From a virus: a stretch of DNA of 47,787 nt. The notes under the pieces were generated by a model. That model saw only the letters and a list, made by a program, of their open reading frames with translations. It was not told the DNA's origin and searched no databases. The stretch is from positions 1 to 47,787 of the IMG/VR virus record IMGVR_UViG_3300019999_000001; one strand, written 5' to 3'. The position numbers and the translations under genes were made by a program. Each line of letters starts with the position of its first letter. The first letter of the stretch is position 1. This document shows positions 1 through 47,787 of the stretch, piece after piece.

Positions 1-127
1 TTTGCTTTACTAATTGCAGTAGTGCAACTAATAAGTAAGATATGCACTGATTACAGTGCATAATGGTACAAAAGCTTTTGTCTTTGTGTTGTTCTCGCGC
101 AGCTGCGCGAGAACGGAGCCAATACAG
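1..127. repeat. Terminal direct repeat, left copy (identical to 47661-47787)
   Basis: All 127 bases match the last 127 bases of the window. This is the pattern left when a circular or circularly permuted genome is assembled with a 127-base overlap, so it may be an assembly join and not a biological terminal repeat. The copy ends in the middle of a hairpin whose arms are 116-127 and 129-140. Confidence 0.97.
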
Positions 128-428
128 TCTGTATTGGCTCACAGTTGGTCACGCCACGTTTGACCCGCCCATGTTAACGTGGCGTGGGTAAAGCTTGTAC
201 ATAGCCCCTCAAAAATGTCCACCAAGGGTACTGGGGCTATGTACTTTGTAAGGACAAAGCACTGGCCTCATGGCCAGTGGTCTAGACCAATACTTGGTGC
301 CACTATGGCACCAAGCCATTCTGAGTGGCAGGAAGCTGCCACGAAGGAAGTATGTTATACCGTCCCATAAGGGACGGATATTATAACGATTAGGTAACGA
401 TTTAGTTACGTTTCTCTGCGTGTCCGTT

Positions 429-456
429 TTGTCCGGTGAGTTTAGACCGCTATTAT
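429..456 (+). promoter_or_regulatory. Candidate promoter for the right-facing late block
   Basis: TTGTCC at 429-434 and TATTAT at 451-456 are 16 bases apart. They resemble -35 and -10 boxes and lie about 260 bases upstream of the terL start. Several hairpins of the array would be in the transcript leader. This is a by-eye match only. Confidence 0.35.
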
Positions 457-716
457 AAGTGAGAGAGTCTTTACGAACGTAGTGAGTAAAGACGAACGAA
501 CAAGAGCGAGGGACGAGCGACTGAGAGAGCTTAGGAGCAACGAAGTTGCTCCAGTAAATAAGCGAACGAAGAAGCGAGGTTCCCTCGCGATCATAAATAC
601 AGCCCTCCTAGGTAGGAGGGCAACAAGTCTTAAAGAGTATTGCCCTAATACTTTTGTAGAGTATTATTTCAAAGGTCTTTGGCCTCGTGGCTAGGCCACG
701 AGGAAGGAGACAGCAC

Positions 717-2675
717 ATGCCTAGAGGACGGCCTGCAAATAAAGCTGAGGACAGGAACATACTCGGACAGATCTACAAGAAGCCTAACGTTCCTGGCCGA
801 AGAGGTTTCAATGTAGCTCGGCCGTCCTCGCTGAAGACAGTTACCCGTGCTGACGCCGTAGAACTGGTTCTCGGCTACCTGGCCGATGGTATGAAGGTGT
901 CAGACGCGATGAAACTGGTCAACCGCGTCGAAGGTACCTATAATCACTGGATGGCCCACGACGAAGACTTCAAGAACCGCGTAGGTGCCATTCGTACCGC
1001 CGCTCGGGAGCGGAAGGCCGATAACAAAGCCGATAAGGTTGTAGTTCCTGATTTCGAAGAGTTTTGCGAGAAGTGGCTTAAACAACCACTTCATCCGCAT
1101 CAATTGCGGATGCTTGACGTAGTTGAAGGTAGAGAACCGAGGGATTTGCATCCCTCGATGGACTATCTGCAGGGTTATCCGCAGCGAGTGATTATCAATG
1201 TTCCCCCGGAACATGCAAAGACCACCACCTTCAGCGTCAATTACAGCGTCTGGATGATCCATAAGAACCCTGACATCCGCATTGTGATCATGTCCCAGGG
1301 TAAAACCCTGGCCCAACGTATGCTCGGTGAGATCAAATTCAAGCTGATGTCCCCGGTTTACCGGGAAATGCACATGCGTTTCGCCCCTGAGGGCGGATGG
1401 AAAGACCCTGACAACTCTTGGACCGCTGATGCGATCTATGTTGAGGGTAAAGGCGGGGACAAAGACCCCACCGTGCAGGCTTTGGGTCTCGGTGGGCAGA
1501 TTTACGGCTCCAGAGCCGACGTCATCTGGATGGATGACACGATTACCACCAAGAATTGTCGTGAGCTAGACCGCCAGATGATCCTCCTTGAGCGGGAAAT
1601 CGAGTCCAGGCTTCCGTCAGATCAGGAAGGTGGCGGGTTACTGTGCCTTATCGGTACCCGAGTGTCTCCTCATGACCTCTATAGAACACTCATGGATGTT
1701 GAGGATGCTGACGGAGATAGGGTATGGACATATTTCCGCCAACCCGCTGTACTGGACTATGGAAACGGCGACTCTTCAGACTGGCATACTCTGTGGCCAG
1801 AGAAGTGGAATGGGAAGTCACTTTCCCGTCGCCGTAGAGGCGTCGCGTGGAACCTCATCTACCAGCAATTGAACGTTGACGATGAGATGACCTTTAAGGT
1901 GGAGGCAGTAGACGCCTCCATCAACGGCCTTAGGTTCCCCGGACCGATGTCCGGTGACGGTCGTGGGGACCGTAAGGGTGGCATGGATGGCCTTTACGTC
2001 ATCGGCGGCCTTGATCCGGCCACGGTTGGTGCCACTGCTATGATAGTTGTGGGGCTTGACAAGGAGACCGGCAAGCGTTGGGTGTTGGATGGCTTCAACA
2101 AACAGAACACCCTGCCTGAAACCATGCGTAACAAGGTGAAGTACCTGACCGAAACTTACCACATCAACGAGTGGGTCATCGAATCTAACGCCTTCCAGAA
2201 ATTCCTGACCCAGGACAGAGACCTGACCCAGTTCCTGCGGAGCCAAGGTTGCCGTCTAACCCCGCATACCACGTCTGAGAACAAGTATGATGCCGAGTTC
2301 GGCATCCAAACCATGGGTCCGATTTTCAATTCCTGTGGACGTCCGGATGAGAAGCTACCCTCCGGGCAGTGGAAGCGGAACATTCACACCGCGTTGATTG
2401 ACCTTCCGAGCATGAGGCAGAACCCTTGGGTGAGCGAACTGGTCCAGGAACTTACTTCCTGGCAGCCTGAGGGTATGTCCAGACGGCAAAAGACAGACCT
2501 TGTCATGGCCCTGTGGTTCACCCACATCGCTTGCCAGCGAATCATGCAGCGCAAGAGTAACAACAAGAGCCACCATGCATATTCACCGTTCCTAACACCG
2601 TCTGCTAAGGGGCGTCAGTTGGTTGTGGACCTAGCCGCCTTGCGGCGTGAGAAGATTTTGGAGAGTGTTGGATGA
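717..2675 (+). CDS. terL: Terminase large subunit (with N-terminal HTH-like segment)
   Basis: Packaging ATPase and nuclease that cuts and pumps genome DNA into the prohead. The 652-aa protein starts at the ATG after AAGGAG; the in-frame start at 687 lacks a site and overlaps a hairpin. Residues about 40-90 look like a helix-turn-helix segment, which may do the job of a small terminase; no separate terS is evident. A variant Walker A (PPEHAKTTT) lies near residue 165. Walker B (VIWMDD) lies near 270. An RNase H-like nuclease motif (GLDPATVG) has its Asp near 433, and VIESNAF follows. The stop overlaps the portal start by ATGA. Confident as TerL; the terS role of the N-terminus is inference. 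Confidence 0.95.
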   Translation: MPRGRPANKAEDRNILGQIYKKPNVPGRRGFNVARPSSLKTVTRADAVELVLGYLADGMKVSDAMKLVNRVEGTYNHWMAHDEDFKNRVGAIRTAARERKADNKADKVVVPDFEEFCEKWLKQPLHPHQLRMLDVVEGREPRDLHPSMDYLQGYPQRVIINVPPEHAKTTTFSVNYSVWMIHKNPDIRIVIMSQGKTLAQRMLGEIKFKLMSPVYREMHMRFAPEGGWKDPDNSWTADAIYVEGKGGDKDPTVQALGLGGQIYGSRADVIWMDDTITTKNCRELDRQMILLEREIESRLPSDQEGGGLLCLIGTRVSPHDLYRTLMDVEDADGDRVWTYFRQPAVLDYGNGDSSDWHTLWPEKWNGKSLSRRRRGVAWNLIYQQLNVDDEMTFKVEAVDASINGLRFPGPMSGDGRGDRKGGMDGLYVIGGLDPATVGATAMIVVGLDKETGKRWVLDGFNKQNTLPETMRNKVKYLTETYHINEWVIESNAFQKFLTQDRDLTQFLRSQGCRLTPHTTSENKYDAEFGIQTMGPIFNSCGRPDEKLPSGQWKRNIHTALIDLPSMRQNPWVSELVQELTSWQPEGMSRRQKTDLVMALWFTHIACQRIMQRKSNNKSHHAYSPFLTPSAKGRQLVVDLAALRREKILESVG

Positions 2676-13400: not shown

Positions 13401-14774
13401 ATGGGTGCCAACTACGCTGGGGTTATTGCTAGCAGGCTGTCGGCATATGGATTTAGCAAGTTTGCCATTGCTGGCATCCTAGGAAATCTGCAAGCAGAGT
13501 CAGGATTGAATCCAAGTTCTGGCGGTATGGATAGTAATGGACTCTGGTCTGGTGGTCTAGCCCAGTGGAATGGTAGCCGATACAAGTCTATGCAAGCATT
13601 CGCCAGGGCCAGGGGTAAGCCTTGGACTGACGTGGTAACACAGATTGACTTTCTCGTTTCGGAAGTTTCTCCTCAACTGAAAGCTGATCTGAATAGTGCT
13701 CAATCTGCAGGCTATGCCGCTCTAGTATTCGTCAATAGATTCGAGATTAGCAGCGCTCTAATTCCGCAGAGAATTGCCTACGCTAACGCTTGGTACCACA
13801 GCGGTACCATAGGTAGCGGTTCTGCAGCCTTGGGCAGCATGGCAACGGGGGGAAGCAGGAGTGGTGGCGGTTCGGCTATTCCCGCCGCCTCGCGTCTCGG
13901 TGATCCAAACCCCTCAGCGTCTGACTATAGGTCAGCATTGGGTTCCCTAGCCGGTCTACTTACGGCTATCCCTGAACTGCATAGTATCTTGCAGCAGGCT
14001 GTTCAGGGTGGCTGGGCGGTTACCAAGTTCCAGCAGGCAATTACCCAAAGTCACTGGTATCGCTCGAATAACGCCGCAACGAGAGCATTGATTGCTCTTG
14101 CTTATTCCGATCCGGCCGAGTATAGAACGCAGCTGGCTCAAGCTTCGGCCCAGGTTTCCCAGCTAGCACAACAGATGGGTGTACCTCTCAACGCGGGCCA
14201 GCTTTCGGTTATCAGCCATGAGTTTCTTACCAATGGTTGGACGCAGGCTACCTTGCAAGCTGATATAGCACGCCAGTATAATCTGCGCACGCAGCCGCAG
14301 GGTAAGGCAGCTGGAATTTATCAGGGACTGAATCAAATTTATGGAGACTACGGACTACCTAATAATTTTGCATCCAGTCAGTTCCGAACTCGGGAGATTC
14401 TGTCCGGTCGCCAAACGCTTGACACGTATAAGCAAGCTGCCATAAAATCAGCTAAGAGTTTATACCCTGGCATTGCTCCTGAGATTGACCAAGGAATGTC
14501 GGTTCGTGATATCGCCAGTCCATACATTCAGACGCAGGCGAATCTATTGGAGATTGATCCGGCTAGCATTAACTTCGGTAACGATGCCGGAATAAAGAAG
14601 GCTCTCCAGGGAGTTCCTAATGCAGTGGGTGCTCGGGTTGCAGTGCCTCTCTGGCAGTACGAACAGCAGGTGCGCAGCGATCCTCGCTGGCAGTTCACTA
14701 ACAATTCAAGAGACACCGTCTCGTCGGCGCTAGTAAGATTAGGTGCCGACTTCGGCTTTGGACCATCGGGGTAA
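13401..14774 (+). CDS. Virion lysozyme (Phage_lysozyme2-like) with repeated C-terminal module
   Basis: 457 aa. Residues 1-130 resemble the phage tail lysozyme family: GILGNLQAESGLNPSSGG carries the likely catalytic Glu, followed by GLAQWNGSR and a helical core ending at FVNRFEISSA. A Gly/Ser linker (135-160) leads to a 290-residue module beginning ASRLGDPNPSASDY near residue 162. That module recurs in the next gene with high protein similarity but diverged third codon positions. Expected role: local peptidoglycan cleavage during DNA entry. Three bases separate it from its upstream neighbour. Confidence 0.8.
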   Translation: MGANYAGVIASRLSAYGFSKFAIAGILGNLQAESGLNPSSGGMDSNGLWSGGLAQWNGSRYKSMQAFARARGKPWTDVVTQIDFLVSEVSPQLKADLNSAQSAGYAALVFVNRFEISSALIPQRIAYANAWYHSGTIGSGSAALGSMATGGSRSGGGSAIPAASRLGDPNPSASDYRSALGSLAGLLTAIPELHSILQQAVQGGWAVTKFQQAITQSHWYRSNNAATRALIALAYSDPAEYRTQLAQASAQVSQLAQQMGVPLNAGQLSVISHEFLTNGWTQATLQADIARQYNLRTQPQGKAAGIYQGLNQIYGDYGLPNNFASSQFRTREILSGRQTLDTYKQAAIKSAKSLYPGIAPEIDQGMSVRDIASPYIQTQANLLEIDPASINFGNDAGIKKALQGVPNAVGARVAVPLWQYEQQVRSDPRWQFTNNSRDTVSSALVRLGADFGFGPSG

Positions 14775-14776
14775 TT

Positions 14777-16198
14777 ATGGCATACGTCTATAAGAACCCT
14801 ATCGGTGCTGGCCTGTACGGACAGCGCATTGATCAGGGTGTTGACTACGGTGGCAGTGGTCCACTGTACGCCCTAAGTTCCGGAGTCATCACAAACGTTT
14901 ATGGTTCCGGATGGCCGGGCGGCGCTTTCATCGAAATACATCTGGATGATGGCAGATACGTCTTCTACGCCGAAGATATTGCACCATCGGTCCACGTCGG
15001 ACAGAGAGTTTCTGCTGGCCAGTTGATTGGGCGAGCCACTGGCGGGGGCGACGGTATTGAGGTTGGCTGGGGTTCTGGCAAGCCCGGCGTGGCGATGGCC
15101 AGAGCGGCAGGACAGACGGCCGCAGGTGACAGGTCGGGCGATCCTGGCAGATACACGACAGCCTATGGACAGCACTTCTCCAACTTTATTCATTCTCTTG
15201 GCGCTCCAGCGGGCCATACCTATGGCCCGATACAAGGCTCCGTGCCTGGTACTTTTGGACGCGGCGCACCACAGGTTTCGTCAGCCGGTTCAAGCCTGGG
15301 CATTCCTGCAGCTAATCGCCTCGGTGACCCGAACCCTTCAGCTTCCGATTATCAGGTGGCACTTGGCTCGCTGGCGGGGTTACTAACCGCTATACCAGAG
15401 TTGCACAGTATTCTGCAGAAAGCTGTTCAGGGCGGTTGGGCTGTTACTAAATTCCAGCAAGCTATCCAACAGAGCCACTGGTACCGGAGTAGCAACGCAG
15501 CGACACGCGAACTAGTTGCTCTCTCTTATTCGGACCCAGCGGAATATCGTACTCGGGTAGCCCAGGCGTCGGCTCAGGTTGCACAGATTGCCCGTCAAAT
15601 GGGGGTTCCTCTTAACGCTGGACAGCTTGCCGTTATAAGTCACGAATTTCTTACTCTTGGCTGGACAACGGCTACTCTTCAGGCTGACATTGCGCGTCAG
15701 TACAATTTGAAGGCTCAACCTCAAGGACAAGCGGCCGGGATTTATCAGCAGCTTACCCAGCTATATGGGGATTACGGAGTTCCTTACAATTTTGCAACAG
15801 TCCAGTATAGAACTCAGCAAATCTTGGCTGGCCGTCAGACAATTGATACGTATAAGCAAAATGCTATCAACGCGGCTAAAAGTCTTTACCCTGGGGTGGC
15901 GGGTCAAATAGATCAGGGTATCACCGTCAGGCAAATAGCTGATCCTTATATCAACGCTCAAGCAAACCTTCTGGAAATAGATCCCCAGAGTATCAACATC
16001 GGGGCTGACGCCGGGATTAAGAGAGCCTTGCAGGGTACGCCCAACGCGACAGGAGTTAAGGTGGCAACACCGTTGTGGCAATACGAGCAGCAGGTTCGGA
16101 GTGACCCGCGTTGGCAGTTCACCAATAACTCCCGCGACGTTGCTTCGTCGGCCTTGGTTCAGCTAGGCGCTGACTTCGGTTTCGGGCCGAAGGGTTAA
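14777..16198 (+). CDS. M23-like endopeptidase-fold protein with substituted zinc ligands, repeated C-terminal module
   Basis: 473 aa. Residues 10-110 follow the M23/LytM beta-sandwich: RIDQGVDYGG, AFIEIHLDDGRYVFYAEDI, GQRVSAGQLIGRATG, DGIEVGWG. In classical M23 enzymes the zinc ligands are His in the H...D, H.H and LHFE positions. Here those places read D or E (RIDQGVD, YAED, IEVGW). The same variant is known in actinobacterial proteins, so it may bind metal differently or only bind wall. From about residue 178 the protein carries the same 290-residue module as the lysozyme gene upstream. Confidence 0.75.
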   Translation: MAYVYKNPIGAGLYGQRIDQGVDYGGSGPLYALSSGVITNVYGSGWPGGAFIEIHLDDGRYVFYAEDIAPSVHVGQRVSAGQLIGRATGGGDGIEVGWGSGKPGVAMARAAGQTAAGDRSGDPGRYTTAYGQHFSNFIHSLGAPAGHTYGPIQGSVPGTFGRGAPQVSSAGSSLGIPAANRLGDPNPSASDYQVALGSLAGLLTAIPELHSILQKAVQGGWAVTKFQQAIQQSHWYRSSNAATRELVALSYSDPAEYRTRVAQASAQVAQIARQMGVPLNAGQLAVISHEFLTLGWTTATLQADIARQYNLKAQPQGQAAGIYQQLTQLYGDYGVPYNFATVQYRTQQILAGRQTIDTYKQNAINAAKSLYPGVAGQIDQGITVRQIADPYINAQANLLEIDPQSINIGADAGIKRALQGTPNATGVKVATPLWQYEQQVRSDPRWQFTNNSRDVASSALVQLGADFGFGPKG

Positions 16199-17413: not shown

Positions 17414-17487
17414 AGCGGGGTGGAGCAGCTAGGTAGCTCGCCAGCCTCATAAGCTGGACGTTGTGGGTTCGAATCCCACCCCCGCCA
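17414..17487 (+). tRNA. tRNA-Met (CAT), initiator-like
   Basis: Full cloverleaf: acceptor pairs 2-7 (GCGGGG with CCCCGC), D arm GAGC/GCTC, anticodon stem CCAGC/GCTGG with loop CTCATAA, T arm GTGGG/CCCAC with loop TTCGAAT, discriminator A. The sequence after it is CCG, so CCA is not fully encoded. Initiator features are an unpaired first base (A1 opposite C72) and A11:T24 in the D stem. The three consecutive G:C pairs typical of initiator anticodon stems are absent. It lies inside the structural operon. Confidence 0.93.
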
Positions 17488-17491
17488 CCGA

Positions 17492-29020: not shown

Positions 29021-29052
29021 AGAGGCCCCGCGAAGGCGGGGCCTCTCTCTTT
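29021..29052. terminator. Strong terminator between convergent operons
   Basis: AGAGGCCCCGC (29021-29031) and GCGGGGCCTCT (29036-29046) form a perfect 11-bp stem with GAAG loop. CTCTTTCTTT follows for the rightward transcript. The stem also lies downstream of the left-facing operon that ends at 29077, so it probably ends both. Confidence 0.85.
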
Positions 29053-34011: not shown

Positions 34012-34375
34012 CATGGACGAGTTTGAGGACGATTTCGAGCCTAAGAAGAGCAAGGGCAAAAAGAACAAGAAGAAGAGTCCGGAACTTGACCCCGAACTAT
34101 GCCCCGTCTGCCAGAACAAGACTCTACTTGAGTCCCTGGAAGCCGAGGGTCTTGTCTTAACAGGAGTCAAGGCCATTCTCGATCAGGACGCTCCTACTAT
34201 TGTTGACGTAATGAATGTGTCGGACCAGTACATAGCACACACTGCGATCAGCCTGTACGCCAAGTCTCTGTATGATATCTCCGAGATTATCGGAGCGGAC
34301 TGGAGGGTGATCCTTGAAACATTCCGTGAGCAAGTCGAAACGTCCCTTTACCATGCCAGTAGAGACGAAGAGTGA
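33989..34375 (+). CDS. Hypothetical early protein with CxxC
   Basis: 128 aa. Start follows GAGAGGAAAAGAT. Acidic/basic N-terminus (DEFEDDFEPKKSKGKKNKKKS), then CPVCQNKTLL and a helical domain (VMNVSDQYIAHTAISLYAKSLYDISEIIGADWRVILETF). It sits between resolvase and primase genes. Function unknown. Confidence 0.65.
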   Translation: MIKPPTINMDEFEDDFEPKKSKGKKNKKKSPELDPELCPVCQNKTLLESLEAEGLVLTGVKAILDQDAPTIVDVMNVSDQYIAHTAISLYAKSLYDISEIIGADWRVILETFREQVETSLYHASRDEE

Positions 34376-34685
34376 ATGCTCAATAGACGAAGTTCTTTCA
34401 ATGTTTACGGACATGGCTATCCCTTCGGGCCATGGCTGGGTCCGGATGCACTGCCCTTTCCACGAGGACCACATCAAGAGCGCGAGCGTAAATCACCAAG
34501 CGAACGCCTTCAGTTGCATGGCTTGTGGCGTCCGTGGGAACTCCTACAGCCTGCTGAAGCAGCAGCTTCGGTTGGATCACTCTGAGACCGTGACCCGTTT
34601 GCACGACCTTGGGGGTGGTAGGGTAAGTGAGATCAAAAGACCCCGCCGTTCCGAGCTGTTTGCAAGGGAGCTAATGTGGTCTTGA
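34314..34685 (+). CDS. DNA primase zinc-finger subunit (CHC2-type)
   Basis: 123 aa. CPFHEDHIKSASVN and FSCMACGVRGNSYSLL form the CHC2 zinc finger of DnaG primases that reads the template. No polymerase or TOPRIM domain follows in frame; that part is encoded by the next gene. Start chosen at TTG because GGAGGG lies 6 bases upstream; the ATG at 34353 is the alternative. Confidence 0.8.
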   Translation: MKHSVSKSKRPFTMPVETKSECSIDEVLSMFTDMAIPSGHGWVRMHCPFHEDHIKSASVNHQANAFSCMACGVRGNSYSLLKQQLRLDHSETVTRLHDLGGGRVSEIKRPRRSELFARELMWS

Positions 34686-35323
34686 CCGACGAACGCAAAG
34701 CGGTCCTCACGGACCGCTCTTGGCTGTACTATCAGAACGTGATCGAAGTGGTTCCCTACTTGGAGATGCGTGGCATCTCGAAAGAGATAGCAGACGTCTT
34801 CCGCTTGGGTTGTGTCACCGAGGGTGAGTTCATTCATAGACTGTCGATCCCGTACCTCACTCCTGGAGGGGTTGTCGGGTTCAAGTATGGTTGTGTCAAC
34901 CTGTCCCACGGTGATCACAAAGAGGAGGGGTTGAACTGCAAGAAGTACCTGTATGAGCCAGGTGTCAAGCACCAGCTGTACAACGCCCAGACCCTCATCC
35001 GTGCCACGGACGTAGTGGTCATCACCGAAGGTGAACTTGACGCGATCAGCGTCGAAGCCCTGTGTGACATCCCAGCTGTCGGTTATCCAGGTGCATCCAC
35101 CTGGACCAGCAACGGCAACGAGTATTGGCCGTTGTGTTTCGAGGGTATCCCAGAGGTCATCGTCATCGCGGACGGTGACCAGCCTGGCAAGGATGCCGCT
35201 AAGGCTGTGGCCCAGTCGATTGGGAACACGGCCAGGGTGGTACAATTAGGGGATGGTTTGGATGCCAACTCCTACATCGTAGACCGAGGGGTTTACGAAT
35301 TTCTCGAGAGGATCACAGAATGA
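34676..35323 (+). CDS. DNA primase TOPRIM subunit
   Basis: 215 aa, GTG start after AAGGGAG. TOPRIM site: VVITEGELDA (Glu118) and VIVIADGDQPG (Asp166, Asp168), followed by the usual 'GKDAA' helix. An N-terminal region (YLEMRGISKEIADVFRLG) resembles the DnaG lead-in to the catalytic core. With the CHC2 gene upstream it forms a split primase; the two genes overlap by 10 bases, in different frames. Makes RNA primers for replication. Confidence 0.85.
   Translation: MVLTDERKAVLTDRSWLYYQNVIEVVPYLEMRGISKEIADVFRLGCVTEGEFIHRLSIPYLTPGGVVGFKYGCVNLSHGDHKEEGLNCKKYLYEPGVKHQLYNAQTLIRATDVVVITEGELDAISVEALCDIPAVGYPGASTWTSNGNEYWPLCFEGIPEVIVIADGDQPGKDAAKAVAQSIGNTARVVQLGDGLDANSYIVDRGVYEFLERITE
35241..35246 (+). 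promoter_or_regulatory. Possible extended -10 box (GGTGGTACAAT)
   Basis: TACAAT preceded by GGTGG, 74 bases before the start at 35320 and inside the primase gene. Similar to the recurring early element. Confidence 0.3.
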
Positions 35324-35661: not shown

Positions 35662-36456
35662 ATGAGGACCAGCCTCAGCAGGCTGGCGGTTGCTTGGTTG
35701 ATCGGCATCCTGCTGATGGTTGGTGTGCTGACTGCGACTGCTGGCAACTCTCTTAATATTCCCTACAAACCAGTCGCGTGGACGGGGAACGTTTATCTCC
35801 CGCCCACGGTTCACTACTCAGCCACCGAAACCCACAAGAAAACCATCCCTCCTATAACTGTCCATAAAGATGACTACAACGTGGTTCTGAACCACGTTAA
35901 ACTAGTCAAGCCAGGTAAGCCCGGCTACGTAAAGGATAGTTTCCTTGTCTACTACACCAACTCACACGTTGATGTTCGTAAGCACGTTGTGCATGTGGTT
36001 GTCAAGCCGACACCTGCGATTGTTGCGATAGGTAAGTATGTTCACCCAAGTTTACCGCCACCACCACCGGCCGCGCCTACGACACCACCTGTACAAGCAG
36101 CTGCACCATCTAACACTAATCAGCCCGCTCCGCCAGCCGTGCTACAGCCTGTTCCTGTACCTGTCTATAGCGGGGGGGACCCTCGTAGTATCGCAGAATC
36201 CATGGTCTCCGCAGGGCAGTGGTCCTGTCTCGATCAGCTTTGGGAGCATGAGTCAGGGTGGAACGTTTCAGCCTACAACCCAAGTGGTGCTTACGGAATT
36301 CCCCAAGCACTGCCCGGAAGCAAGATGGCGTCAGCTGGAGCAGATTGGCAGACTAATCCCCGTACCCAGATCGTCTGGGGATTGGGATACATTGCGGGTG
36401 TTTATGGAAGTCCTTGCGGAGCTTGGGATCACGAACTCGCCTTCAACTGGTACTGA
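35662..36456 (+). CDS. RpfB-like secreted transglycosylase (G5 + SLT domains)
   Basis: 264 aa. N-terminal hydrophobic signal or anchor (RLAVAWLIGILLMVGVLTATAG). Residues about 40-125 look like a G5 domain (TETHKKTIPPITVHKDDYNVVLNHV, KPGYVKDSFLVYYTNS, HVVHVVVKPTPAIVAIGKYV). A Pro-rich linker follows, then an Rpf/SLT-type lytic transglycosylase (about 175-264): CLDQLWEHESGWN with the catalytic Glu, NPSGAYGIPQALPGSKM, WGLGYIAGVYGSPCGAWDH. Domain order recalls RpfB of actinobacteria. Acts outside the membrane on peptidoglycan. Unusual in an early replication block; could loosen the wall, wake dormant cells or aid lysis. Confidence 0.8.
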   Translation: MRTSLSRLAVAWLIGILLMVGVLTATAGNSLNIPYKPVAWTGNVYLPPTVHYSATETHKKTIPPITVHKDDYNVVLNHVKLVKPGKPGYVKDSFLVYYTNSHVDVRKHVVHVVVKPTPAIVAIGKYVHPSLPPPPPAAPTTPPVQAAAPSNTNQPAPPAVLQPVPVPVYSGGDPRSIAESMVSAGQWSCLDQLWEHESGWNVSAYNPSGAYGIPQALPGSKMASAGADWQTNPRTQIVWGLGYIAGVYGSPCGAWDHELAFNWY

Positions 36457-43272: not shown

Positions 43273-43471
43273 AGCGAGCCATCTCCTCTCGTGTCCATGC
43301 ATCAACGGCTACGGTGACTCTCGCTAGGCTCTCCTCGTGCGACTCTCGCTCCCACCTCTCAAGAGTGCGTCCCCATGCCGCCATGCTGCCCGCTAGACAT
43401 ACGAGCAGCACCACGACTATCCCGAGCACCGCCTGCCAGGGTGTAACCGCCCACGGGGCGTACAGGTCCAT
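43217..43471 (-). CDS. Small membrane protein
   Basis: 84 aa, start after GGAGAGGTTA. One membrane helix (AVLGIVVVLLVCLAGSMAAW) followed by an amphipathic charged helix (RTLERWERESHEESLARVTVAVDAWTREEMARYA). Overlaps the WhiB gene stop and the secreted-protein gene. Function unknown. Confidence 0.65.
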   Translation of the reverse strand: MDLYAPWAVTPWQAVLGIVVVLLVCLAGSMAAWGRTLERWERESHEESLARVTVAVDAWTREEMARYANRSASTSDDNAAAGIS

Positions 43472-43818
43472 TAACCTCTCCGCTCGCTAGGGTGCACGCT
43501 CGCAGAGCGTGGTCCGTCTCGTGTCATGCCGTTGAACGCTCGTTGTATATCGTCCATAAACGTTGTAGGCATGCCCTTACCCCGGTACCAAAGGCGATAA
43601 CGGTCATCCTTGTCCATGCCTCCCCATACCCCATCTGTCACGCCTTCCTCTAGCGCGTAAGTCTGGCACGGGAAGTACAGAGGACAGTCCATGCATATAC
43701 GCTTAGCCTCGCTTGCCTCCAGTGATCCCGGTTCGGCGAACCATAGACGGTCCGCATCGGCGTATGAGTAGGTGGCGCATAACGCGCCACCATTCTCCTC
43801 CTCTAACCGTAGTGTCAT
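43471..43818 (-). CDS. whiB: WhiB-type iron-sulfur transcription regulator
   Basis: 115 aa. Cys14, Cys42, Cys45 and Cys51 match the Fe-S ligands (CATYSYAD, CMDCPLYFPC), followed by the conserved GVWGGM turn and a basic C-terminus. WhiB proteins are restricted to actinobacteria and their phages; they bind the host housekeeping sigma factor and shift its promoter choice. Some phage forms alter host septation and exclude other phages. Ribosome site AAGGTGGG. Fits a host-takeover role. Confidence 0.92.
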   Translation of the reverse strand: MTLRLEEENGGALCATYSYADADRLWFAEPGSLEASEAKRICMDCPLYFPCQTYALEEGVTDGVWGGMDKDDRYRLWYRGKGMPTTFMDDIQRAFNGMTRDGPRSASVHPSERRG

Positions 43819-43820
43819 AA

Positions 43821-44942
43821 CTAGCCCACCTTACGCCCGGATGTGATGGCTAGCCGCTCGCGCTGCACTTGCTCAATGACATTGTCATCATCGTCCGGAT
43901 TGTAGTCGTTGCTCGCGGTCGGCATACGGGTTAGCACTGCTGCGCGAGAGTCCTCGCTACCTCGGTCCGGTAGCAGCGCTACGCGCATTGAGTGAATGAC
44001 TCCCATATGGTCTACGTAGTCGTGTTGATAGTCAAACTCGACATTGCAGATATGGCACCAGTAGTGATCATCCCACGATACCTCGGTGTAGTCGTGACGA
44101 TGAGATCCTGGAGCTACCGGGATATAGGCACGTTCCCATTCTTCGCCGTAGGCATCATATGAATCGCGCTCGCGCCCCATGACGCCCGGCCAGTCGTAAT
44201 GATTGCCGGGGGTATACGACTTATAGGTGTATGCCTCGCGCTCATCGGGCACGGGTAGACCAGCATCGGCCGCCGCGTGGAGGACCAACTGACGGAATAG
44301 ACCAATCTCAGGTGCCCCGTCCCGTGCCATCTCGGGGTGAAACTGTACCCCGACAACCCAGCGGCCCGTGGTGCTCTCGATAGCTTCGATCGTTCCGTCA
44401 CGGTGGTGTGCGCTGGCCCTCAGACCACGCCCGACGCGCCTAACGGCTTGGTGGTGTAGGTGGATAGTGTCAGTTGCGCGGCGTCTGCCTCCTACGGCTT
44501 CCTGTAGGTAGCTACCCTGTCGGATGTTCACTGGCAGATTGCCGCACTTATGCCCCGAGCTTGTGCGGTGGTTGTCCGTGATGTTCTGCCACAATGACCC
44601 GCCAGATTCGACGTTGATCACTTGCGCGCCTCGGCAGATGCCGAGCACGGGCACATCATGCTTACGTGCCATACGTAGGGCGGCAAACTCCACGACATCC
44701 CGTAGCTGATTCACGCCGTAAGTCTGGACATGGCGTGCTTTGCCTTCGCCGTAGTGGGCAGGGTCGACGTCTCCACCTCCGGTGAGGACTAGTCCGTCCA
44801 CCTGTTGCGTGGTGAATTCCTTTTTGATCATGTCGAGGCTGTAGGGCGCGAATTCGACAGGTGTCCCGCCTGCCTCATACACGCAATCGACCGCACCACT
44901 AAGTCCCTCTAGGACCATGATGCGCGGACGTTGGTTAGTCAT
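43821..44942 (-). CDS. Class I glutamine amidotransferase (peptidase C26-like) with C2H2 zinc finger
   Basis: 373 aa, start after AGGAGAG. N-terminal 225 residues: VLTGGGDVDPAHY, VPVLGICRGAQ with catalytic Cys103, and VVGVQFHPE with His202 and Glu204, as in gamma-glutamyl hydrolase/PuuD enzymes. A C-terminal extension holds a C2H2-like finger: YWCHICNVEF (Cys296, Cys299) and DHMGVIH (His312, His317). The adjacent amidoligase gene suggests a pair that makes and breaks amide or gamma-glutamyl bonds in a small molecule or peptide. Substrate unknown. Confidence 0.88.
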   Translation of the reverse strand: MTNQRPRIMVLEGLSGAVDCVYEAGGTPVEFAPYSLDMIKKEFTTQQVDGLVLTGGGDVDPAHYGEGKARHVQTYGVNQLRDVVEFAALRMARKHDVPVLGICRGAQVINVESGGSLWQNITDNHRTSSGHKCGNLPVNIRQGSYLQEAVGGRRRATDTIHLHHQAVRRVGRGLRASAHHRDGTIEAIESTTGRWVVGVQFHPEMARDGAPEIGLFRQLVLHAAADAGLPVPDEREAYTYKSYTPGNHYDWPGVMGRERDSYDAYGEEWERAYIPVAPGSHRHDYTEVSWDDHYWCHICNVEFDYQHDYVDHMGVIHSMRVALLPDRGSEDSRAAVLTRMPTASNDYNPDDDDNVIEQVQRERLAITSGRKVG

Positions 44943-44955
44943 GTTGATCTCTCCT

Positions 44956-46473
44956 CTAGAATGTTAATAACGGTTCGGGATCGTAGTCGTCGCCGTCGTA
45001 TGATCCCTCATCGTCCCAACTATCCGCATAGGAGTCACGGCGACCCTCGCCGTCTTCTTCCTCCGGATCGTTGTGGCTGGTGCTCCGGAAGTACGCCGCG
45101 CGCTCGGTCAAGAACGTCCGGGTAGCTTCCTCTAGCGACAGGTTGCCTAACAGCTGGCACACGCTCTCGTATGCTGGCACGTCGTCTAGGTCGGGCATGG
45201 TGTCGTTGTCCCGAGCGTAGGCAATCATCGCCTGACCGAACGCAACCCATCCGCATATCTTGCCAGCGTTTGTGGTGCCTTGGTGCTGCCTGATCTCTAC
45301 CGTCCCGTACTGGCCGAACGCTTGAACGTTCAACGACTTGAAACGGTCAATATTGCGGAGGTGCTCACCGGCCACATATTGAGACATGGTGGCCAGACCG
45401 TTAATGGTCGATATATCTCGGTCGGTTAGTGGGCTGCAATACGAATTGTGCCGACGTGACGGAGACACGAGCAGGTCAATTGCTGCCTGCGAGTTACGCC
45501 ACAACATGCAAAAGCGTTTGAACTGTACGGCCGTCAGGTCACGCACCTCGTGGTGCACGTGGAATCCAGTGTCTATCGTGACACTGCATCCGGCTGCCTG
45601 TAGTGCTTGGCTAGCCTTGCGCAGTGCCTCGAAGCCACGTTCACCGGACAGGATCGGCGAGACTAGCTCTGCACCGTTGTCAACTGAACCATCGGGCACG
45701 ATCTTCCAAAGGGAACGACTGACGTTGTGGTTATAGCTCTGCACCTCACAGTCAAGACCTAGCGCGACCATCTCACGCTCTAGTTCGCGACTATCACCGT
45801 GGAACTCTAGTTCCACGCCGAAGTTACGAACGCTGGGAGGGATGGTTGCGTTAGTCTCTCCAGCGTTACGCCTGCGGCGCAATAACTCCCGTCCGCTAGC
45901 GCGGTATTGCTGCGCATACTCGCGTGCGCACTGGCGGCAATAGGTGTTGAAACGTTGCCTCGCTTCGGACCATGAGTAATTCTCACGGTTGAGGAGTAAG
46001 CCACGGCGGCAACGTGAGCATGTGCGCCTAGGTGGTCGTGGTTCAGTGCCCTGTCCGATAATCACGTCGTGTGTGGTGAGCCGCGCATGGGGTGCAATCT
46101 CTGATCCGTGTACGTAAGCGGTGCCCGTAGTTGTGACGTTGCGACGTAAGTAAGACCGGATGATTTCACTTGATCTAGTTACGCGGCAGAACTCCGACAG
46201 GTAGCTTCCTCGCACATATGCGTCATCCTGCACGTTGGCGTCATAGTCCACATACGAGTGACTGTCCACAAAGGCGGTCTCAGCAACCCATCCGCCTAGG
46301 TGGCCGTTAGGGTTCATGTGTCGTCTAGCTAGTACCTGTCGTCCACCTAGGCCCTCTTCGGGGCCCTCCAGACAGACGCGCGTTGCCTCTTGTGTCCGCT
46401 CTCGCTGGCACTCTCCGCATCCTGGCACAGAGGGTAGCTCGTACATTCTCGGCGGGAATGTCACAGTTGGCAT
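44956..46473 (-). CDS. Amidoligase (glutamine-synthetase-fold) with zinc and beta-helix-like N-terminal domains
   Basis: 505 aa; ATG at 46473 follows AAAGGAGCGAACC and is preferred over an upstream in-frame ATG. Order: Cys motif CGEC (19-22); about 59-140 a repeat-rich segment with hexapeptide-like strands (AETAFVDSHSYVDYDANV, TAYVHGSEIAPHARLT) suggesting a left-handed beta-helix; a zinc finger CSRCRRG ... YCRQCARE (152-182); then the amidoligase core (213-425) with FGVELEFHG, DGSVDNGAELVSPIL, TGFHVHHEV and VEIRQHQGT, the expected metal and ATP residues. An acidic tail ends the protein. Forms carboxyl-amine bonds using ATP; substrate unknown. Confidence 0.85.
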   Translation of the reverse strand: MPTVTFPPRMYELPSVPGCGECQRERTQEATRVCLEGPEEGLGGRQVLARRHMNPNGHLGGWVAETAFVDSHSYVDYDANVQDDAYVRGSYLSEFCRVTRSSEIIRSYLRRNVTTTGTAYVHGSEIAPHARLTTHDVIIGQGTEPRPPRRTCSRCRRGLLLNRENYSWSEARQRFNTYCRQCAREYAQQYRASGRELLRRRRNAGETNATIPPSVRNFGVELEFHGDSRELEREMVALGLDCEVQSYNHNVSRSLWKIVPDGSVDNGAELVSPILSGERGFEALRKASQALQAAGCSVTIDTGFHVHHEVRDLTAVQFKRFCMLWRNSQAAIDLLVSPSRRHNSYCSPLTDRDISTINGLATMSQYVAGEHLRNIDRFKSLNVQAFGQYGTVEIRQHQGTTNAGKICGWVAFGQAMIAYARDNDTMPDLDDVPAYESVCQLLGNLSLEEATRTFLTERAAYFRSTSHNDPEEEDGEGRRDSYADSWDDEGSYDGDDYDPEPLLTF

Positions 46474-46510
46474 GGTTCGCTCCTTTCGAGCATAGTTGTA
46501 CTCACCTGAC

Positions 46511-46540
46511 AGCATCGCACACTGTAGGTAGGTAAGTCAA
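46511..46540 (-). promoter_or_regulatory. Candidate promoter of the amidoligase operon
   Basis: Minus-strand TTGACT (46535-46540) and GATGCT (46511-46516), 18 bases apart, lie 38 bases upstream of the amidoligase start. The -10 match is poor, so this is tentative. Confidence 0.25.
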
Positions 46541-46882: not shown

Positions 46883-47065
46883 CTAGGACTTACGAACGAG
46901 TCCAGCCGCGCGAGTGAACGTCGCACGGTCGAATCGTGGGTTATCGTCCTCTAGCGCGTCCACTAGGCGCGCTAGCGCTCCGTTCAACTCGTGACGGTCG
47001 TAACCGTCGTCTATGGCGGACTTAATCGCGTGAGCGATGAGTTCATAGTCCTTGCGGCTCATCAT
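46883..47065 (-). CDS. Small hypothetical protein
   Basis: 60 aa (or 59 from the second Met). Two helices (KDYELIAHAIKSAIDDGYDRHELNGALARLVDALED). The start overlaps the stop of the upstream gene. Similar 'small, helical, acidic' proteins are common in actinophage left arms. Function unknown. Confidence 0.6.
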   Translation of the reverse strand: MMSRKDYELIAHAIKSAIDDGYDRHELNGALARLVDALEDDNPRFDRATFTRAAGLVRKS

Positions 47066-47316
47066 GATGTGATCTCACTTTCGCGGTAGTTATTGAGCAT
47101 GACATCCCGAAGTAGGTTCGTTGCTGCCTCATCTGGCAGATAGCCGTTGTCTTGCAGTTCTGCCGAGTAGTCACGGGCAACCGTGACGGGTTGCGGTTGG
47201 TTCGGCGTGGCGTACTTCACTACGACGTGCCAGCCGTGCTCATCGTCGCCGCGTACGCGGTACACGGTCACGTCGGCCGTGATCAACGGGTGTTGATCTT
47301 GATGAGGATGAATCAT
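47062..47316 (-). CDS. Small hypothetical protein with beta-rich core
   Basis: 84 aa, ATG after GAAGGGACAAGATC. Strands (ADVTVYRVRGDDEHGWHVVVKYATP, PVTVARDYS) then a C-terminal helix (DEAATNLLRDVMLNNYRESE). No family recognised. Confidence 0.6.
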   Translation of the reverse strand: MIHPHQDQHPLITADVTVYRVRGDDEHGWHVVVKYATPNQPQPVTVARDYSAELQDNGYLPDEAATNLLRDVMLNNYRESEITS

Positions 47317-47460: not shown

Positions 47461-47660
47461 GATCCGTTCCCTTCGGTGTGTGTTGGCCGTGCTTCGCACG
47501 GTGCGCTGTTGATCTTGTGTTGTCAATAGGTAAGCGGTGAGTCGTGATCTAATCGTGATGTTGACAGTGTCAACTCAGCATGTGCTGACAGCTAGTGCTT
47601 GCAATAGCTAGCACTGAAGTGTGAGCGTCAGCATGTGCTGACACAAGGTAGTGCACTACT
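47461..47660. repeat. Left-facing operon leader and start of the hairpin array (non-coding)
   Basis: No gene seen. Inverted repeats: 47487-47492/47496-47501 (arm CCGTGC); 47560-47566/47568-47574 (arm GTTGACA); 47575-47580/47583-47588; 47594-47599/47610-47615; 47627-47633/47636-47642; 47648-47659 (GTAGTGCACTAC). The 16-base word TCAGCATGTGCTGACA occurs twice, at 47575-47590 and 47628-47643. On the circular map this continues directly into 1-716. Confidence 0.8.
47560..47574. promoter_or_regulatory. Palindromic operator-like site containing TTGACA on both strands
   Basis: GTTGACA and TGTCAAC arms surround a single G, so each strand carries a consensus -35 hexamer. The site is about 100 bases upstream of the first left-facing gene (start 47460). 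No good -10 box sits at standard spacing on either strand. Role as operator or promoter is inference. Confidence 0.4.
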
Positions 47661-47787
47661 TTTGCTTTACTAATTGCAGTAGTGCAACTAATAAGTAAGA
47701 TATGCACTGATTACAGTGCATAATGGTACAAAAGCTTTTGTCTTTGTGTTGTTCTCGCGCAGCTGCGCGAGAACGGAGCCAATACAG
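47661..47787. repeat. Terminal direct repeat, right copy (identical to 1-127)
   Basis: Exact copy of bases 1-127. The sequence before it (47461-47660) continues the same hairpin-rich non-coding tract found at the window start. Joining 47660 to 1 therefore gives one continuous intergenic region. Confidence 0.97.

Follow-up and report, generated by a model that had tools for sequence, protein, structure and literature searches.

A dense array of unlike perfect hairpins upstream of terL in a circularly closed phage genome, with folding that seems preserved while the sequence changes

Structured leaders and packaging-junction hairpins are already known kinds of element. The hairpin-bearing put RNA, which leads a long transcript of phage HK022, serves processive antitermination. 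Phage T7 has a direct terminal repeat at its packaging junction, where fold-back DNA has been reported (PMC4281155), the promoters of phage N4 have conserved stem and loop bases in common (PMC4496689), and Streptomyces telomeres are described as tightly packed palindromes (PMC4513846). Among the Beephvirinae, which are Streptomyces podoviruses, the termini of FlowerPower and four others are reported as 253-bp repeats (PMC9753666). We identified an exact direct terminal repeat of 253 to 276 bp in 7 of 8 Beephvirinae isolate records, its right end reading GAGTG|AGTCCC about 340 to 405 nt upstream of terL, and a repeat of 396 bp with shifted deposited ends in the eighth isolate, Abafar. In the Beephvirinae isolates L013, L014, L100, L101, L103, L104, and L105, the left end of the repeat (GTCCCCTCTCC...) and its right end (GGGGAGGAGTG) resemble short inverted copies of each other, a layout that would suit a terminase cutting at two inward-facing sites.

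The window, that is, the whole stretch of 47,787 nt analyzed here, is a contig from an IMG/VR virus record (IMGVR_UViG_3300019999_000001). Its ends are identical over exactly 127 nt (1-127 and 47661-47787), from which it follows that the genome is circularly closed with a true length of 47660 nt and that an array of hairpins runs unbroken across the join (47487-47660 and 1-707). The non-coding stretch that holds the array is flanked by a leftward operon, whose first ORF (47062-47316, minus strand) encodes 84 aa of unassigned function, and by the terminase large subunit gene terL (717-2675, plus strand; phrog_38, E = 4e-69), with its ATG at 717. Behind terL, the rest of a same-direction late block extends over 2672-29013 on the plus strand and includes portal, tail/lysozyme proteins, a tRNA, scaffold, major head protein, and others. 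A single strong plus-strand intrinsic terminator, with an 11-bp stem and a T-rich tail, follows the block at 29021-29046, and none that is strong lies inside the block. The terL product is 37% to 38% identical to that of Beephvirinae, no nucleotide match was found between the window and Beephvirinae, and the replication genes are encoded on the plus strand here versus the minus strand in Manuel; by gene similarity and order, the phage thus does not fall within Beephvirinae. A WhiB-like gene at 43471-43818 suggests an actinobacterial host. On a replication origin, one of the candidates named on first inspection, GC skew of the genome gave nothing clear.

Elsewhere in the window, an amidoligase-like ORF (Amidoligase_2) adjoins a Peptidase_C26/glutamine amidotransferase ORF (43821-46515, minus strand) beside the WhiB-like regulator, and the two look like a phage peptide ligation and cleavage pair. 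A single tRNA gene (Met) was found at 17414-17489, where Beephvirinae isolates carry about 15 to 20 tRNAs. The primase is encoded by two overlapping ORFs (zinc-binding and Toprim parts; 34314-35323), as in Beephvirinae isolates, and within the replication gene cluster, an ORF at 35662-36456 that contains a G5 domain and weakly matches an SLT transglycosylase resembles resuscitation-promoting factors. Further, two adjacent virion ORFs (13401-16198) carry a lysozyme and an M23 peptidase domain, respectively, with the C-terminal family phrog_6654 in common.

Across 47487-47660 and 1-707, perfect Watson-Crick inverted repeats with loops of at most 25 and arms of at least 6 bp number 22, against a mean of 4.1 and a maximum of 9 in 200 dinucleotide shuffles. 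With arms of at least 7 bp, 18 repeats were counted (shuffles: mean 1.2, maximum 5). The first-pass annotation had described more than twenty hairpins in tandem, all perfect and all differing in stem, one about every 35 bases; the description of the stems stands, the number holds if 6-bp arms are counted and falls short at arms of at least 7 bp, and the spacing is nearer 40 nt. Both features that it had singled out were recovered, the palindrome of 24 bp at 91-114 and, at 116-140, a pair of 12-bp arms around a 1-base centre; several array arms have loops of 0 to 2. Paired bases number 318 in 890 nt versus a shuffle mean of 15, and the repeat density of about 20/kb, compared with 4.7/kb in other intergenic and 2.6/kb in coding DNA of the same genome, makes the array the densest hairpin site of the genome. 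The DNA fold of 40-380 gave z = -13.0, and the RNA fold of 460-716 gave z = -8.5. Any two array hairpins have at most 6 aligned arm letters in common, which rules out a single expanded repeat family.

The nearest relative, L001, is an independent contig of 26408 nt with a terL of 93% amino acid identity to that of the window and 18 hairpins at the same position; the array is internal to this separate contig, which rules out an assembly error. A search for further close relatives yielded only L001 and L002, the latter identical to L001 in the overlap, and none in bacterial genome contigs. In the seven hairpins that were registered by hand between the window and L001 (automatic counting misaligned at replaced hairpins), 58 pairs are identical, 6 differ in both arms yet remain Watson-Crick, and 2 are broken, both adjoining a loop. 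The conserved palindrome ACAAAAGCTTTTGT (68-81) and the hairpins at 91-114 and 116-140 are identical or compensated in L001, except for two loop-side pairs of 116-140; 534-552 is identical, and 360-377 and 602-621 have two compensatory pairs each. At other places, for example, within 260-342 (260-279, 293-315, and 325-342) and 646-703, perfect hairpins of unrelated sequence stand in L001 instead. Together, the compensated pairs and the wholly replaced perfect hairpins indicate that pairing is kept. One leader hairpin could be aligned in 11 related phages and covaries at 5 of 8 pairs, and in leader hairpins that remain recognisable between more distant relatives, Watson-Crick pairing survives 93 double changes and is lost in 10, in a set picked for being retained, which favours pairing. 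The folding itself thus seems to be preserved across relatives, and the earlier proposal that pairing itself is selected is supported by the compensatory double changes and by the covarying pairs.

The left end of the array (47487-47660) comprises hairpins at 47487-47501, 47560-47574, 47575-47588, 47594-47615, 47627-47642, and 47652-26, the last over the join, and those within 1-140 lie at 41-62, 68-81, 91-114, and 116-140. To their right, 150-244 (plus strand) is a putative concatemer junction or terminal-repeat end in which the order of motifs is as in relatives: the loop of hairpin 150-186 carries TTGACCC-N6-TGTTAA, hairpin 197-244 carries CCCCTCAAAAATGTCCACC, and the right end of the terminal repeat is predicted near 201-203. 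The pattern TTGACCC-N6-TGTTAA ... CCC-AAAAATGTC occurs at near-equal spacing in the window and L003, and the motif order was also found, by pattern through bridging relatives, in L001, L005, L006, L022, and L024. A junction profile matches 39 relatives strongly and is not significant for the window or L001. By these motifs, the junction would lie at 161-222, in the loops of the hairpins at 150-186 and 197-244, and the suggestion of a packaging site made on first inspection fits the left part of the region, through this motif resembling a terminal repeat or cut site, and not the region as a whole. A dense array is not a universal feature, as Beephvirinae isolates have 2 to 4 perfect hairpins per 700 nt here.

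Following the hairpins within 260-377 (260-279, 293-315, 325-342, and 360-377), one stretch, 378-466, lacks perfect hairpins. It contains a conserved block (378-464, plus strand) that is near-identical in L001 and carries three GTAACGATT-like iterons at 384-411 and a candidate late promoter, TTGTCC-16-TATTAT (429-456, plus strand), which overlaps the motif TATAAGTGAG (about 453-463, plus strand). The iterons differ little in L001 and can still be made out in L003; standing directly upstream of the candidate promoter, they may be a binding site for a phage late activator. A leftward promoter was sought by eye, and nothing usable was found. At gathering score, Rfam gave no match in the region and only a tRNA elsewhere; GP20-a, which lies over the promoter block, matched at full length with 20.5 bits versus a threshold of 47.2 (E 0.4-0.6) and was rejected.

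The predicted 5' leader of the late operon (465-703, plus strand) holds hairpins at 467-493, 534-552, 574-588, 602-621, 646-666, and 683-703, the last of which abuts a hairpin-free ribosome-binding site (AAGGAG, 704-709, plus strand). The promoter motif TATA(T)AGTGAG was found 229 to 384 nt before terL in 14 leaders, the window included, and in these leaders the repeat density is 15/kb from the motif to terL, 8.4/kb upstream of the motif, and 3.3/kb in terL coding sequence, the last being the baseline to use since shuffled DNA, at about 1 to 1.6/kb, inflates the lineage-wide excess when taken alone. Aquatic relatives, at about 5 repeats/kb, are near that coding baseline. The enrichment between promoter motif and terL points to a hairpin-rich 5' leader as the lineage-wide feature. 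However, the window, L001, and L022 have additional hairpins upstream of the promoter, and in the window and L001 these are at least half of all hairpins, so leader RNA alone does not account for the array. Of a structured non-coding RNA, another of the initial candidates, what survives is the stretch after the candidate promoter, which has the look of a hairpin-rich mRNA leader; the region as a whole does not fit.

We tentatively favour, at a probability of about 0.4, a joint reading of the array as the control region and packaging junction of a podovirus-like actinobacterial phage, with a hairpin-rich leader RNA of a late operon of about 28 kb and hairpins around the genome-cutting junction. 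The right half, about 465-703, would form the 5' leader of a single late transcript that is about 28 kb long and reaches from terL to 29046; the leader hairpins would fold in the RNA and leave the promoter and ribosome-binding site free. The folded leader would most likely sustain the long late mRNA or its polymerase, and it could do so through RNA-based processive antitermination or by hindering RNA decay. The left half, about 47487-377, would span the concatemer cut point that gives the terminal repeats, with putative recognition motifs in hairpin loops and stems that vary. The hairpins, the conservation of their pairing, the conserved promoter-like block, the terminal repeats that relatives have at this position, and the hairpin enrichment between promoter motif and terL are observed; that the region is transcribed, where this phage is cut, and how the folded leader acts are what we infer from sequence.

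The hairpins might instead act in DNA, with single strands exposed by replication or terminase cutting folding at the junction, and the folded strands priming the copying of the terminal repeat, as proposed for a hairpin intermediate in T7, or shielding the ends from host nucleases. We regard this as rather unlikely, though it has several observations on its side: the array covers the site at which relatives carry their terminal repeats, the promoter is flanked by hairpins on both sides in the window, L001, and L022, and the short loops of several arms are natural for DNA palindromes. Pairing is also strictly Watson-Crick, without strand-specific wobble. Single changes in leader hairpins gave 126 G-T versus 143 A-C, whereas tRNAs of the same phages gave 374 versus 76, the signature of pairing in RNA (for this test, rRNA of E. 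coli served poorly as a control). Terminator-like hairpins of the same genomes, however, are equally without wobble (G-T 23 versus A-C 31), so the test supports neither RNA nor DNA, and the absence of wobble was withdrawn as proof of selection at the DNA level. Against a role in DNA, phages with deposited terminal repeats carry few hairpins, and the excess across relatives peaks between the promoter motif and terL and not in the repeat; in the wider relative set, densities are 7.6 repeats/kb from junction to terL and 4.8/kb in the 500 nt left of the junction.

A mostly mutational origin, in which template switching at quasi-palindromes makes and repairs hairpins that the spacer tolerates, could yield perfect pairing, compensatory changes, and whole-hairpin replacement alike, and mutations that extend arm identity in imperfect inverted repeats are documented in yeast (PMC3820800). 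We consider it improbable, since other intergenic DNA of the genome has less than the array by the densities given above, the promoter block and the ribosome-binding site are hairpin-free, and L001 matches the window in hairpin number (18) though many of its hairpins differ.

Two further candidates from the first pass fare worse. Hairpin promoters for a virion RNA polymerase in the manner of N4, DNA hairpins that likewise lie near a podovirus genome end, would suit an array near the probable genome end and the N4-type annotation given to the Beephvirinae relative of the major head protein, but they are very improbable here, as the large 1845-aa protein has no RNA polymerase motif, no polymerase was found among the PHROGs hits of the scanned proteins (a subset of ORFs), the array stems and loops have no conserved sequence in common of the kind seen in N4, and an ordinary promoter-like block is present. 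A telomere-like palindrome array of a linear replicon in the manner of Streptomyces, which shares with the array several different palindromes in tandem and accords with the actinobacterial host suggested by the WhiB-like gene, is scarcely credible, since such telomeres stand at the replicon end, whereas in the window and L001 alike the array is internal, the contig closes to a circle, terL and portal are present as in a terminase-packaged genome, and the relatives have direct terminal repeats.

In Rfam and in the literature searched, with partial coverage, no element with such a layout was found described, nor any set of about 20 unrelated perfect hairpins that change in sequence and keep their pairing. 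That these are a new class of phage regulatory leader, made of sequence-independent tandem hairpins under selection for pairing alone, which would allow one promoter to drive a late transcript of about 28 kb and would also structure the DNA junction of concatemer cutting, we think doubtful. If the leader reading is true, it would represent a simple, sequence-free way of controlling very long phage operons through RNA, and if the hairpins act in DNA, they would bear on the duplication of direct terminal repeats during packaging; both are open to experiment in cultivated Streptomyces podoviruses.

Among the known systems, the T7 concatemer junction resembles the proposed array site in its terminal repeat and hairpin-containing intermediate, but it has one hairpin, whereas the window array has many different ones. 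HK022 put, by analogy, resembles the predicted leader in placing its hairpins at the head of a long transcript, but their number is far smaller, and we know of no sequence in common between the two. The Beephvirinae differ in their few hairpins (2 to 4 per 700 nt versus 18 to 22), in their distant terL, and in having ends that are deposited, where those of the window are predicted. As predicted for the window, their junction stands directly upstream of terL between divergent operons, with the ordered motif ACCC-N-TGTTAA ... CCCC-N-AAAWWT-N-CC that the window matches by pattern, and Manuel, Immanuel3, and FlowerPower likewise carry a covarying hairpin in the leader.
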